The notes beneath the pieces are model-generated. The model saw only the letters and a program-made list of their open reading frames with translations, was not told the DNA's origin and made no database searches. From Planctomycetaceae bacterium (lineage in GTDB: Bacteria; Planctomycetota; Planctomycetia; Planctomycetales; Planctomycetaceae), in contig JADZEF010000273.1 in assembly GCA_020850695.1 (NCBI GenBank), positions 1 through 64,000 of the forward strand: a DNA stretch of 64,000 nt, given 5' to 3'. A program made the position numbers and the translations under genes. Shown here piece by piece: positions 47,265 to 54,368 of this stretch; position 1 is the stretch's first letter; the number at the start of each line of letters is the position of its first letter.

Positions 47265-49374
<2,110 letters not shown>

Positions 49375-49566: not shown

Positions 49567-50382
49567 TTACGCTCCGGGCTGCCAGACGAGGATTTCCCCC
49601 TTGCCGGGAATCGAGCGATCGCCGCTATAGAGTGCGTAGGCTCCCTCCGACTCCTCATTTGGCAGCCGGATGCCGAACGGGGCCAGAGTCCGGGCGAGGA
49701 TGTTGATGAAGACGGGGTTCAAGTGGGCGGCGTAGGCGAACGTGGGCATCATCTGCAGCGGCTTCAAGGAGATGATGGTGCCGCGCTTCATCCAGGCGCC
49801 GGTGCGGATCTCGGCCCCGCTCATCAGGATGATCGTTCCCCCCTTCATCTGCAGGCCGGTGAAATCGCGCGTCGGGCCACCCACGACGATCGTCCCCCGG
49901 CGCATCCGCATGCCGACTTCGAGACCGGCCGAGCCGTCGATGATGATCGTTCCGTTGCGCATCCCCTGGAGGGCTCCGCGGTACGCCGCGCCGACCTGCC
50001 CGCCCGCGTTGCCGTGGATGTGGATGAAGCCGTTCTTCATCTCCGCGCCAATCCAGTCCCCGGCGTTGCCATGAACGTTGATCAGTCCGCCCGTCATGTA
50101 GGCGCCGAGGTGCATGCCGATCGAACCGTGGATCGTGATGGTCCCCTTCGACATGGCGCGGCCGACCCAGCGGACCTTGGGCATTGTCCCGTGAAGCACA
50201 AGGTCTTCGCACTTCTCTCCCTCGACGTCGAAGAACTCGCCCAGCGGGAGCTGCCGCTTGCCATGATAGACGGTGAGCGCCCGGATCTCGGCGTTCGAAA
50301 GTCCGCCGATGACGTCCGGCGTGAGGACTTCGGCCTCGAGGGGGACGGTCGGCGTGCGCTTGAGATGGAAGGTGACAGGCAT
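49567..50382 (-). CDS. fhcC: Formylmethanofuran dehydrogenase subunit C
   Basis: A 271-residue subunit of the complex linking C1 units on methanofuran (or methylofuran) to formate/CO2. Its body is the right-handed beta-helix shared with the C-terminal part of glutamate synthase: successive Gly-x-Ile-x-Ile-x-Gly turns such as KGTITIHGSIG, GLINVHGNAGDWIG, NGFIHIHGNAGGQVG and NGTIIIDGSAG. It is structural, packing the FwdA and FwdB subunits. ATG at 50382 is 14 bases after the fhcA stop, so the two are co-transcribed. Upstream in-frame codons to 50487 lie inside fhcA. Confidence 0.94.
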   Translation of the reverse strand: MPVTFHLKRTPTVPLEAEVLTPDVIGGLSNAEIRALTVYHGKRQLPLGEFFDVEGEKCEDLVLHGTMPKVRWVGRAMSKGTITIHGSIGMHLGAYMTGGLINVHGNAGDWIGAEMKNGFIHIHGNAGGQVGAAYRGALQGMRNGTIIIDGSAGLEVGMRMRRGTIVVGGPTRDFTGLQMKGGTIILMSGAEIRTGAWMKRGTIISLKPLQMMPTFAYAAHLNPVFINILARTLAPFGIRLPNEESEGAYALYSGDRSIPGKGEILVWQPGA

Positions 50383-50396
50383 CGATCCAGTCCACG

Positions 50397-52037
50397 TCAG
50401 CCGGGGATCGGGACACAGTCGCGCAGATGGGGATGCTCGATGCGTTCGAGCTCGACCGGATAGTTCTCGAACTGCATCGTGTAGCACTCTTCGAACAGCG
50501 GCCGCATGAAGTCGTCGATGTCGGGCTCGCAGTGGGGGCGGACGAGGAACTCGTGTCCCTGAGGAGCTTCGCGGATCTCTCCCTCTTCGATCACGATTTC
50601 ACCCGCTTTGATGACATACCGCGGATGGCCGAACATGCGGACGACGTCATGGTCTTCTTCGTAGATCACGAGGTCGGCGTCACAGCCGATGCCGAGGTTC
50701 CCCTTGTGTGTCAGTCCGAGCGCCCGTGCGGGACCGGCCGACATCGAGATGGCCACCTCGTACAGCGAATACTCGCGGGTCACTTCGGGGAGCCGGATCT
50801 TTCCCTTGATCTTGTCGGGGAGCTGCGCAATGCATTCCTTCCGGAAGTCTGCCCGCATCAGCAACTGGAGGATTTCCGGATATCGCCAGAAGCATCCGCC
50901 GTTGGGGTGGTCGGTCGAAAGGAAGACCTGCCACGGGTCTTCGATGAGGAGCAGCAGCTCGAGGCCGGCCGCCCACTGGACGGCATTGACCAGGTTGCTG
51001 GGGCGATAGGTGTAGGGAACGATCCCGCAACCGGTTTCGTTCTCGACGTCGAGGTTGCCCCACTTGCGGCCGGTGAGCTTGTGGAGCAGGTGCTGCCACG
51101 GGCCGTCGGCGGTGATCGTCACCGTGTCGCCGAAAAGAACCGCTCCCGCGTCTGTTGTCAGGTTCTTGTGACTGTTGAAATGCTCGGCCAGTTCGGCGGT
51201 GCTGGAGCACATCGTGTCCCAGCCGTCGCCGCCGTAGGCGTGGTATTGCGAGTGGGCGATGTGAGCGCGGCGGCCTTCGAGGCGGTGGAGCGTGTCGAGC
51301 GTCGTCGAGATGTTGCCGGGTGCGCCGAGGTTATTGCAGTGGAGGTGCATCGGGTGCGGGAGGCCCAGCTCGTCGCAGATCCGTGCCAGTTGGGTGACGA
51401 TCGAACCGGGGGTGAGGTTCCGGTAGCCCTCGATCGGCGAGTCGAGCTGCTTGGCGTCCTTCCCCCACTTCCAGGCGGTGACCCCCCCGGGGTTAACGGC
51501 TTTGATCCCGTACGACTTGGCAGCCCACAAGTACCATGCGACGACCTGCTTGGCCCGCTCATACTCTCCCTTTTCAAGCTGGTCGAGCATGATCTCGTTG
51601 TTCGCCATGAGCGTCAGCGACGCCTTGTCGACGATCGGGATGTCAGCGAGTTCCTCGTGCGTGTGTCGGGCTGACAGGACCGGAACGGCGGCTTCATTGA
51701 CCGTCGTCCAACCCATCCCCGCATAGAGGTAGCCGGTGGCGAACGTCGTGGGGGCCATGCCTCCGAGCCCGCTGCGTCGCGACTTGGTGCGGATGAACGC
51801 CTGGGTGCGGCGATGGTCTTCGGGCGTCATCGCGCGGGCGAAGTTGATCGCTCCGCCGGCGACATGCGTGTGCACGTCGACCCCGCCCGGGAAGACGATC
51901 ATCCCTGTAGCGTCGATCGTGCGGCCGCCATCGACCGAGGCGACGAAGCGGCCCTTGTCGTCGATGCACAAGTCCTTGACCTGGCCGTTGATGCCGTTGG
52001 CCGGATCGTAAACCTTTCCGCCGGTGATGCGAAGCAT
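50397..52037 (-). CDS. fhcA: Formylmethanofuran dehydrogenase subunit A, amidohydrolase
   Basis: A 546-residue metal-dependent amidohydrolase that interconverts formylmethanofuran and formate plus methanofuran. The expected dinuclear-metal ligands are visible: His56 and His58 (DVHTHVAGG), Lys179 (YGIKAVNPGG, the lysine normally carboxylated), His231 (HLHCNN), His259/His262 (HIAHSQYH) and Asp376 (STDHPNGG). At 546 residues it is normal length. It is upstream of and coupled to fhcC. A 356-base gap containing a large inverted repeat separates it from fhcB, so it may have its own promoter. Confidence 0.96.
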   Translation of the reverse strand: MLRITGGKVYDPANGINGQVKDLCIDDKGRFVASVDGGRTIDATGMIVFPGGVDVHTHVAGGAINFARAMTPEDHRRTQAFIRTKSRRSGLGGMAPTTFATGYLYAGMGWTTVNEAAVPVLSARHTHEELADIPIVDKASLTLMANNEIMLDQLEKGEYERAKQVVAWYLWAAKSYGIKAVNPGGVTAWKWGKDAKQLDSPIEGYRNLTPGSIVTQLARICDELGLPHPMHLHCNNLGAPGNISTTLDTLHRLEGRRAHIAHSQYHAYGGDGWDTMCSSTAELAEHFNSHKNLTTDAGAVLFGDTVTITADGPWQHLLHKLTGRKWGNLDVENETGCGIVPYTYRPSNLVNAVQWAAGLELLLLIEDPWQVFLSTDHPNGGCFWRYPEILQLLMRADFRKECIAQLPDKIKGKIRLPEVTREYSLYEVAISMSAGPARALGLTHKGNLGIGCDADLVIYEEDHDVVRMFGHPRYVIKAGEIVIEEGEIREAPQGHEFLVRPHCEPDIDDFMRPLFEECYTMQFENYPVELERIEHPHLRDCVPIPG

Positions 52038-52132
52038 GGTGGAGATCGGAGCGCGACGGTCAGGATGACATCATATTCAACGCATACACTCATCTTGGCT
52101 GAGTGAATTCAGCAAACGACCGACGAAGTCAG

Positions 52133-52272
52133 AGGTTTGAATAAGGAACCCAGGAAGGCAGGAAAAAGACAGGAAGCAGAGAAAAGCCAAATCCAGATCT
52201 GGACGACGGCTCGGCCTCTGATTCTGGATTCCTTGCCTTTTTCCTGCTTTCCTGGGTTCCTTATTCAAACCT
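52133..52272. repeat. Large inverted-repeat element between fhcB and fhcA
   Basis: Arms of about 36 bases, one mismatch in the compared part, beginning AGGTTTGAATAAGGAACCCA and ending with its complement (TGGGTTCCTTATTCAAACCT). The 68-base centre is itself partly palindromic around CCAGATCTGG. No coding frame is evident. It looks like a small non-autonomous mobile or hairpin element. The rest of the gap (52038-52132 and 52273-52393) shows nothing recognisable, though it is more AT-rich than its surroundings. Confidence 0.9.
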
Positions 52273-52393
52273 TCCCATAAGACGTCGACCGATCCATTAA
52301 AGAGGGTCGTCTGAAACCTTCTTACCCTACTTTTCTTTTGGCAAACCTTGTTGCGGTCTCGGCACCTTGGCCTGAGATGCCTCTTGAACGGCG

Positions 52394-53734
52394 TTAGACC
52401 TGTCGGGTCAACATCTGCGGCTGGCTGCCGTCCGGGAGCCAGAAGGGCTTTCGGGCGATGGCCTCGTTGATGCGGCGGACGACTTCTTCATCGGACGGAT
52501 ACGGCGACTTGAGGGCCGGCTTCAGCGGCATCGGAAGCTCGTCCATGCGATAGGCCGTCCCCGGTGCGGCGATCCCTTGCGGGGCCGTCGTGATGTGCAC
52601 GCGGGCCAGCGCGCTGGTGTGCGTGATGTGGGGATCGAGCACGATCGTCGGAATGCGCTTCAGATGATCGATCGCCGGTTGCGGCATCGTCCCGCCAGGG
52701 TCGGCCCCGATGATGAACGCCGCATCGCAATCGCCGCGGACGAGAACGTCGACCGTCGAGAACTCGCCCGGGTTGTAGCGGGGATAGCCTCGGTTGAACG
52801 AGATGCCGAACGGGTAGCCCGTCTGCCATCGCATGATGACGTCGGCCCCGGTGACGTTTCCGTGGCCGCGCATGGGCATGGCGACGAACTTGGTGAAGGC
52901 GTTCATCTCAGCGGCCAGCATGAGAAGCGCCGCGCTGTTCATGTGCTTGCCGCGGGTCATCGAGAGGCCCATGCCGAAGAACATGCAGCCGAACTTCGCG
53001 GCCTTCATCCGGCGGATGAGGTCGTCGAGCGTTTCGCGCGTCAGGCCGGTGGCGTTGATCTGCTCGTCGGCGACGTATTCATCCTTGATCATCGCCCGCA
53101 GGATCGTGATCAGCTCGAAGTCTTTCCCGGGCTTGATCTGCAGGAAGATGTCCGCCGCGTTGGCGCTCTTCGTTTCGCGGATGTCGACGAGCACCATCGT
53201 GCGGTCCTTACGGCCCCGCGGCAGAAACTTGCTCTTCTGCATGATGGTGTATTTCGTGAAATGGCGGGGATGGCACTCGGCCGGGTTTCCCCCCCAGTAC
53301 ACGATGAAATCGGCTCGTTGCTTGACTTCGCCGAGCGTGCAAGTGACTTTGCCACCCAACTGGGCGGCGATTTCGGTTGGGCCGTGTCAAAGCGACGTGT
53401 GACTGTCGAGCAGCCCTCCGAGCTGGTCGGCCAGGGCGACGCACTCCTTCTGCGCTTCGCAGGTGGTATTGCTCATGCCGTACACGAGCGGCATGTCGGC
53501 TTCGTGCAGCAGCGTGGCCGCCATTTCGATGGCGTCGTCGAGCGAGGCCTCGCGGCCGTCGATGAGGGCCATCGGATACTTCTTCTCGGCGGTGTGGTTC
53601 AGGAACCACGCCGTCCCGAGGACGCACGCCTTGTTCGCCTTATGGATCCGCATCTCGTCGTGATGCAGCTGGATATCGTCGCAGACGCATCCGCAGAACG
53701 TGCAGGTGGCGTTATTGATGACCGAAAGGCTCAT
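52394..53734 (-). CDS. fhcB: Formylmethanofuran dehydrogenase subunit B, predicted selenoprotein
   Basis: The catalytic molybdopterin subunit, 446 residues if TGA at 53389-53387 is read as selenocysteine. Start MSLSVINNATCTFCGCVCDD; Cys11, Cys14, Cys18 and Cys37 are placed to hold a [4Fe-4S] cluster. The in-frame TGA is codon 116, followed by His-Gly-Pro-Thr, matching the Sec/Cys-His-Gly-Pro active site of the formate dehydrogenase/FwdB family (Cys118 in Methanothermobacter FwdB, Sec in Methanopyrus). The frame is uninterrupted on both sides, both halves are well conserved, and a SECIS-like hairpin follows. So this is not a broken gene. Ordinary gene calling gives two pieces, 53734-53387 and 53359-52394. 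It lies downstream of the fwdD-like gene after 298 bases. Confidence 0.9.
53351..53368 (-). promoter_or_regulatory. Predicted bacterial SECIS hairpin
   Basis: Minus strand, 18 nt after the TGA: GCCGCCC-AGTT-GGGTGGC, seven pairs (one G-U) closed by a four-base loop containing GU. Twenty-five bases separate TGA and loop, within the range accepted for SelB-dependent elements. It lies inside coding sequence, as bacterial SECIS elements do. A competing helix, CCCAAC (53381-53376) with GTTGGG (53360-53355), is possible and would place the structure closer to the TGA. Confidence 0.75.
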
Positions 53735-54032
53735 GGTGCGCTTCCCGAGGACCTTCTGGATCGATCTACTTGCTTTCACACGGGGTGTCGTCCGAACCGG
53801 ACGACGGGACCGTGAACGTTCAACCCAAGGCCCGGCCGAGGCAGCTGCCGCGGACGCGGCGGGGCATGAACCGCCCCTCTTCGATCTCGGTCCAGGGAGC
53901 GAGACCGGCCGTGTCCCCCTCCACTGTAAAGTGAGGACCGTCAATCCCAGAACGTTGCGGGTCGAGTGGTTGTTCCGACATGACTCTCACCTGTGTTCGC
54001 CAACTCGGCTCGATGCGATCTGCCGCACACCG

Positions 54033-54368
54033 TCATTGCGGGATGACGTCGACCTCCCACCCTTTCGAGGTCGGCATCCCTGTCCCGTCCGTGTCTCCCC
54101 CCATCAATCGGCAGGTGGGTGGACCGTAGGGGACGAAAATCATTCCGAGCGGCACTTTCCCCGCCTGACACTTGAACGCCGACTCGCCGAACTCGGTGCG
54201 AATCAACGCCATCTGCCCCTCGGCGAGGCCGATTTCCGCCATATCCTCTGCTGCCATCGTCATCGAATTGGTCAGGGCTTGATACTCGGGAGAGTTTTTC
54301 CCCACGTTGATCAACGACCCCTGCTTCGACGAGCGGGACGAGTTCAGGATAAACCGTTTCGCTGCCAT
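54033..54368 (-). CDS. fwdD: Formylmethanofuran dehydrogenase subunit D-like, dinucleotide-binding domain
   Basis: A 111-residue stand-alone molybdopterin-dinucleotide-binding domain (FwdD/FmdD type). Signs are the N-terminal LNSSRSSKQGSLINVGK, the AAEDMAEIGLAEGQ turn, PLGMIFVPYGPP and a C-terminal GMPTSKGWEVDV. In archaeal Fwd this subunit completes the pterin pocket of FwdB. Methylotrophic proteobacteria, whose FhcB is metal-free, do not use it, so its presence supports a metal-containing enzyme here. It is upstream of fhcB on the same strand. The 298 bases between hold only a small hairpin (53787-53805, GTCGTCC/GGACGAC) and may include a second promoter. Confidence 0.9.
   Translation of the reverse strand: MAAKRFILNSSRSSKQGSLINVGKNSPEYQALTNSMTMAAEDMAEIGLAEGQMALIRTEFGESAFKCQAGKVPLGMIFVPYGPPTCRLMGGDTDGTGMPTSKGWEVDVIPQ

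Follow-up and report, generated by a model that had tools for sequence, protein, structure and literature searches.

Probable selenocysteine-containing, redox-type formylmethanofuran dehydrogenase with a co-conserved small protein in a planctomycete

The window analyzed here (the whole 64,000-nucleotide stretch at positions 1 to 64,000 of contig JADZEF010000273.1, assembly GCA_020850695.1) is contig C277 of an 8.6-Mb Planctomycetaceae genome in 440 contigs. It carries an operon that is likely to encode a selenocysteine (Sec)-containing, redox-type formylmethanofuran dehydrogenase (FMD), FwdDBAC, plus one extra small conserved protein. The genes fwdD, fwdB, fwdA and fwdC read in the same direction on the minus strand, with the small open reading frame (ORF) between fwdD and fwdB (Table 1). 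This reading draws on the gene content, the Sec signals, the metal and cluster ligands, the FwdB phylogeny, the linkage of the formyltransferase gene ftr in many relatives, and the set of tetrahydromethanopterin (H4MPT) genes on the genome. Bacterial formaldehyde oxidation via methanofuran (MFR) is usually described as hydrolytic, with the formyltransferase/hydrolase complex (Fhc) yielding formate. If our reading is correct, a widespread planctomycete clade with a Se-ligated redox FwdB and an Fhc-type set could take formyl-MFR straight to CO2, capturing the electrons, and a bacterial FMD without a neighboring polyferredoxin would become open to study in culturable Pirellulales. The small protein is newly tied, almost one-to-one, to Sec-FwdB. 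The core of the system, a Sec fmdDBAC operon in one Rhodopirellula-type planctomycete, has been in print since 2016 (PMC4807772).

Two samples were analyzed. A phylum survey by family search of 392 planctomycete genomes recovered FwdB above cut-off in 25, of which 10 carry one UGA in fwdB, always at the same site. Relatives were taken as the best 80 loci from a scan of named genomes, and these divide into a Sec clade (clade I, 68 loci) and a Cys clade (clade II, 12 loci). Most of the named nearest relatives are metagenome-assembled genomes of Planctomycetota; one complete genome (strain K23_9) is among them. The Sec site falls within the alignment for 66 of the 68 clade-I loci and is not covered in L146 and L155. 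Among the weaker matches of the phylum survey are many frames of formate-dehydrogenase size (~900 amino acids) with one in-frame TGA, from other planctomycete lineages; these are probably Sec formate dehydrogenases.

The single in-frame UGA of fwdB occupies a metal-ligand position, aligned with C118 of the archaeal chain 5t5i_B, and the signals in the sequence indicate that it is almost certainly a selenocysteine codon. All 66 readable clade-I loci have a UGA at the site. The codon is followed by a hairpin with the consensus GCCGCCC-AGUU-GGGYGGC, a bacterial selenocysteine insertion sequence (bSECIS); the AGUU loop is present in 66/66 sequences (65 loci and the window), and the 18-nt hairpin has a minimum free energy (MFE) of -7.5 kcal/mol or lower in every one of them. 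The bSECIS model, as given in the available text of PMC13188914, comprises a loop of 3–9 nt, G in the first two loop positions, a spacing of 16–37 nt and an MFE ≤ -7.5. This full model is satisfied by 63 of the 66 sequences versus 5 of 24 Cys controls (a set that includes repeat copies of one genome); the hairpin in the window satisfies it with 7 bp (loop, spacing and energy in Table 1). An in-gene SECIS predicts synonymous-site constraint just past the UGA, and the minimum synonymous variation of any 6-codon stretch across 63 aligned fwdB genes is at codons +7 to +12 past the UGA, where it reaches 0.355 of expectation (median over columns, 0.95). A Gln codon, CAG, and a Leu codon, TTG, are each used in 63/63 of these genes. 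By plain MFE z-score, the 55-nt UGA region does not stand out (-1.42); the case for the SECIS stands on conservation.

Components for Sec incorporation are encoded elsewhere on the genome, with tRNA-Sec (73 bits) and SelB (350 bits) adjoining on contig C238 and SelD (382 bits) on C241. Within the window’s own family, tRNA-Sec was found in 4/4 genomes with Sec-FwdB versus 1/24 others (p = 2.4e-4). A bacterial SECIS lying inside the gene, on a branch related to Cys forms, suggests an independent Cys-to-Sec change and, as we would infer for the last step, not an import from Sec-using archaea.

The residues of FwdB point to a redox enzyme. C11, C14, C18 and C37 (the N-terminal [4Fe-4S] ligands), residue 116, H117 and R289 are invariant in alignments of 12 and 18 sequences. 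U116-H117 aligns with C118-H119 of 5t5i_B, and His291 aligns with His290 of the same chain, a residue placed around the metal in the available text of PMC11656701; His291 is absent from the three planctomycete FhcB-type sequences in the alignment. In a FwdB tree of 60 rows, the 21 rows of the Sec clade fall together with 18 Cys rows and two Thr copies at a Shimodaira–Hasegawa-like approximate likelihood ratio test (SH-aLRT) value of 98, while planctomycete FhcB-type rows are recovered as a separate group (99) and the four archaeal chains group at 95. An initial sequence-only reading of the window had proposed a redox-type FwdB, and this is borne out by Sec at the metal-ligand position, the four Fe-S cysteines, His117, His291, the presence of FwdD and the position in the tree. 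The tree test had been set beforehand, looking for nesting among metal-free hydrolytic forms; FwdB was placed outside the FhcB group. The loss of metal ligands and cluster that marks the FhcB of Fhc was not found in FwdB of the window, which retains the ligands. A Sec-containing, redox-type FMD, partly known already, is thus how the complex would be classified, and the sequence supports this classification well.

Several results weigh against this interpretation. Across the full set of 392 genomes, tRNA-Sec and Sec-FwdB are not significantly associated (p = 0.10); 9 of 10 Sec-FwdB genomes have a tRNA-Sec, with none detected in G343 (62% complete). The FwdB tree carries SH-aLRT support only, has just four archaeal rows and includes one very long FhcB row. 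A search for MobA reached 96.7 bits, under the cut-off of 151.85. The motif CxxCxxCxxxC occurs once in six frames of the window, in a 55-codon frame at 47298 that we take as a chance match, and no FwdF or FwdG is visible there; across the 68 clade-I loci no ORF of ≥90 amino acids has a ferredoxin motif, a search that a shorter FwdG would escape. Neither FwdF/FwdG nor an equivalent was found in the window or the clade-I loci, the remainder of the genome not having been searched. Among the best 80 loci, only L152, which belongs to the Cys clade, has a ferredoxin-motif match.

The small ORF between fwdD and fwdB is conserved nearly throughout the Sec clade. Its tail, W..(I/V)..GR(F/Y).PRR.RGS..GR.LG, was recovered in 58 of 65 loci by pattern and in 5 more by eye (63/65); L145, L146 and L155 are excluded from this count because too little sequence is available there. 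The two loci without the ORF, L104 and L106, also have no fwdD or fwdC detected nearby. These Sec-clade loci (one from Pirellulaceae bacterium, KatS3mg111) consist of fwdB-fwdA only. Codon position 3 of the small ORF is far more variable than positions 1 and 2, and the ratio of nonsynonymous to synonymous substitution (dN/dS), calculated for the last 16 codons from 59 sequences (600 pairs, of which 405 were usable), is ~0.13; we conclude that the ORF encodes a protein. A profile of this protein searched against the 392 genomes gave 10 strong matches, exactly the 10 Sec-FwdB genomes, at least two of which (the window’s own and probably G344 = L093) had also contributed rows to the profile, and one weak match (G105, 6e-4); with the weak match counted, Fisher’s p is 5e-19. 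The protein has no match in Pfam, NCBIfam or PHROGs. LuxO chains, the best PDB matches of the profile (E 0.8 to 1.2), were treated as chance. An AlphaFold model is weak (predicted local distance difference test [pLDDT], 64.7; predicted template modeling score, 0.31), with a better-scored hairpin at residues 30–40.

We regard the small protein as a probable subunit of the Sec complex, with a structural or docking role. A bolder version, possible but on balance doubtful, is that it is a specific Sec-FMD subunit whose β-hairpin and arginine-rich tail would sit on FwdB/FwdD in place of the archaeal FwdFG module, as a docking site for an electron acceptor or for the polyglutamate chain of a one-carbon (C1) carrier; this would make the bacterial Sec-FMD an enzyme type apart, working without a polyferredoxin of its own. 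That the ORF is instead a leader peptide or a detached tail of FwdD seems rather unlikely. Archaeal FwdD (5t5i_D) does have a C-terminal tail where FwdD of the window ends, and the ORF is just ahead of fwdB, but its conservation is at the amino acid level (the dN/dS value above) and its distance to fwdB varies from 47 to 1,530 nt. No FwdD chain is among the matches of the small-protein profile up to E 10, and the detached-tail version was rejected on this ground.

The sequence-only reading had described the complex as being without the formyltransferase, which is true of the window only. Two ftr genes are present elsewhere on the genome, on C19 and C241, and of 65 Sec-clade loci examined, 11 are too short to show linkage and 23 of the other 54 have ftr in the locus, upstream of fwdB (same strand in 13, divergent in 10). 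As a candidate subunit (FhcD), Ftr is unlinked in this genome and adjacent to the operon in those 23 relatives. The operon-linked ftr of the Sec clade matches the C19 copy at 55–64% versus 39–46% for the C241 copy. The other C1 genes that the same reading had proposed seeking in the full genome were also found, with mch and two copies of fae, one of them ~190 bases away from an mtdB-type gene. The second ftr (C241, L065) shares a 16-kb stretch with selD and adjoins an ORF that resembles, by eye, 5-formyltetrahydrofolate cyclo-ligase.

In the proposed mechanism, formaldehyde would enter via Fae, and MtdB and Mch would lead to formyl-H4MPT, from which Ftr would transfer the formyl group to methanofuran or methylofuran. 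FwdA would hydrolyze formyl-MFR, and the formate would pass through the FwdA/FwdB cavity to a Se-ligated tungsten or molybdenum (W/Mo)-bis(pyranopterin guanine dinucleotide) site in FwdB. Oxidation to CO2 would occur at this site, with electrons leaving via the single [4Fe-4S] cluster of FwdB to an acceptor not seen nearby. Oxidation of formyl-MFR to CO2 in formaldehyde metabolism is the most likely function, and both the oxidative direction and the predicted W/Mo metal are plausible. We consider it unlikely that the same redox complex runs toward CO2 reduction, supplying formyl-MFR for biosynthesis or the C1 pool. The reaction is reversible, and the nearest relatives by structure, the archaeal FMDs, are CO2 reducers in methanogens; however, reduction would need a very low-potential donor, neither the operon nor its surroundings showed a ferredoxin-type donor module, and Fae on the genome favors formaldehyde oxidation.

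A hydrolytic Fhc complex in which FwdB is merely structural is improbable. Fhc is the known bacterial form and its clusters carry ftr beside them, as do the operons of 23/54 relatives, but this explanation has to contend with Sec in 66/66 loci, the presence of FwdD, the invariant Fe-S and active-site residues, and the position of FwdB apart from FhcB in the tree. Sequence identity to the five best plasmid-borne matches is 24–25%, with two of the five annotated as formate dehydrogenase, and all plasmid matches are <60% identical. The AlphaFold model of FwdB (pLDDT 85) has a template modeling (TM) score of 0.90 to archaeal 8rja_B/5t5m_B and of 0.65 (20% identity) to FhcB of Methylorubrum (6s6y_B). 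The window shares the A, B and C subunits with Methylorubrum Fhc (6s6y), as well as a predicted place in the H4MPT formaldehyde pathway, and differs from it in keeping Sec and the Fe-S ligands and in having FwdD. The genome also encodes a separate, dispersed Fhc-type set (FwdA on C253, a Cys-containing FwdB on C8, FwdC on C365), which probably makes an ordinary, formate-releasing Fhc complex. The contrast with Methylorubrum drawn at the outset is incomplete in this respect, since the organism carries an Fhc-type set as well. Finally, the UGA could be a stop, a sequencing error or a pseudogene lesion, with no FwdB made, and standard annotation does split the fwdB ORF, but the same UGA in 66/66 loci, the SECIS hairpin and the conservation on either side of the UGA leave this explanation next to no weight.

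Two further patterns concern the ligand position of FwdB. Planctomycete FhcB-type rows have Cys, Gly, Ser or a deletion there, and in the proteins (L026–L038, L049, L067, L068) the metal site is lost by degrees, from CHGN/CHAP through GHAP and SHTA to loop deletion. A second fwdB copy separates the small gene from the Sec fwdB in L131 (4619–5872) and L133 (4547–5833) and has Thr in place of Sec (ETSLTHGTMELAAQL); both copies group with the Sec clade and look like metal-ligand loss in a tandem copy.

The grouping of subunits A, B and C with a separate D-like gene, noted in the sequence-only reading, was confirmed by hidden Markov model (HMM) assignments of all four. Scores against curated NCBIfam models, all above cut-off, are 493 bits for FwdB (TIGR03129; cut-off 327.8), 669 bits for FwdA (TIGR03121; cut-off 392.75; PDB FwdA chains from E 5e-145) and 263 bits for FwdC (TIGR03122; cut-off 130.65). 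FwdD matches the NCBIfam FwdD model at E 1.3e-18, under that model’s exception cut-off, Pfam Molydop_binding at E 3.8e-8, and the PDB FwdD chains 2ki8, 9sfi, 5t5i, 8rja and 7bkb. The HMM match of FwdC begins only at residue 38 of the longer frame, so the start is likely the ATG at 50382, not 50487. A genome search placed no ftr on this contig, and the six-frame motif scan showed no visible fwdF or fwdG in the window, in agreement with the initial view of the window.

Table 1. Features of the predicted Sec-FMD operon (positions in the window).
Feature	Position	Strand	Basis or remark
fwdD, small pterin-dinucleotide-binding subunit, 111 aa	54033-54368	-	NCBIfam FwdD, Pfam Molydop_binding, PDB FwdD chains
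Small ORF, 53 aa, invariant tail W...GR(F/Y)xP.R..GS..G..LG	53820-53981	-	Conserved between fwdD and fwdB
fwdB, catalytic subunit of 446 aa with predicted Mo/W-bisPGD and [4Fe-4S]; residue 116 is Sec	52394-53734	-	TIGR03129
In-frame UGA read as Sec, context HTSL-U-HGPTEIAAQL	53387-53389	-	Cys in homologues
Bacterial SECIS hairpin GCCGCCC-AGUU-GGGUGGC	53351-53368	-	Loop AGUU, 25 nt past UGA; -13.1 kcal/mol
fwdA, amidohydrolase subunit, 546 aa	50397-52037	-	TIGR03121, PDB FwdA chains
fwdC, beta-helical subunit	49567-50382	-	TIGR03122; ORF open from GTG at 50487

Among known systems, the closest to the window is the operon of planctomycete P2, in which a Sec fmdB is part of fmdD-fmdB-fmdA-fmdC, both Sec and Cys forms are present, and a relative is known from a Lake Washington fosmid (PMC4807772). 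Both are from planctomycetes, have the same gene order and a Sec FmdB, and occur in genomes that encode a further FmdB without Sec. The P2 account covers one genome and the fosmid, compared with 68 loci here, and its available text names no small gene, Ftr linkage or fmdB SECIS (PMC4807772). The available text of PMC5020050 states that fwdD is absent from Planctomycetes, with which the window and its relatives disagree, and that of a 2026 review treats FwdB for methanogenic archaea only (PMC13188914). What is added here is the evidence for a SECIS, the spread of the system from the survey, and the co-conserved small protein; a literature search cannot target an unnamed 53-amino-acid protein. 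The archaeal tungsten FMD FwdABCDFG (5t5i) and the F420-reducing FMD (8rja) share with the window subunits A–D, the Fe-S cysteines, the Cys/Sec ligand and the equivalents of His119/His290. Unlike these systems, the window has no visible FwdF/FwdG or reductase module, its FwdD is without the archaeal tail, and it has the extra small protein and a bacterial SECIS inside the coding region.

The Cys-containing FwdB of clade II (Chloroflexota, Pseudomonadota and other Planctomycetes) are the nearest relatives among the best 80 loci, with 54–61% identity and an accompanying FwdD. They differ from clade I in having Cys in 12/12 loci and no small protein by pattern, and many planctomycete members have no A or C nearby. 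In L150, L152 and L153, ftr is between fwdA and fwdC, giving the order D-B-A-Ftr-C (D inverted in L150). At L050–L054, L156, L157, L159 and L161, a Cys-type fwdB, mostly with fwdD adjacent, stands in a neighborhood where neither fwdA nor fwdC was detected over the stretch analyzed.

The gap between fwdB and fwdA contains a 39-nt inverted repeat (95% complementary, arms 62 nt apart; 52133–52272), possibly a small mobile element. At the gathering score, Rfam gives a single match in the window, a tRNA. A tRNA-Ile with anticodon TAT is at 648–721, and a horizontally acquired tRNA-UAU is described for several Planctomycetes in the available text of PMC4807772.

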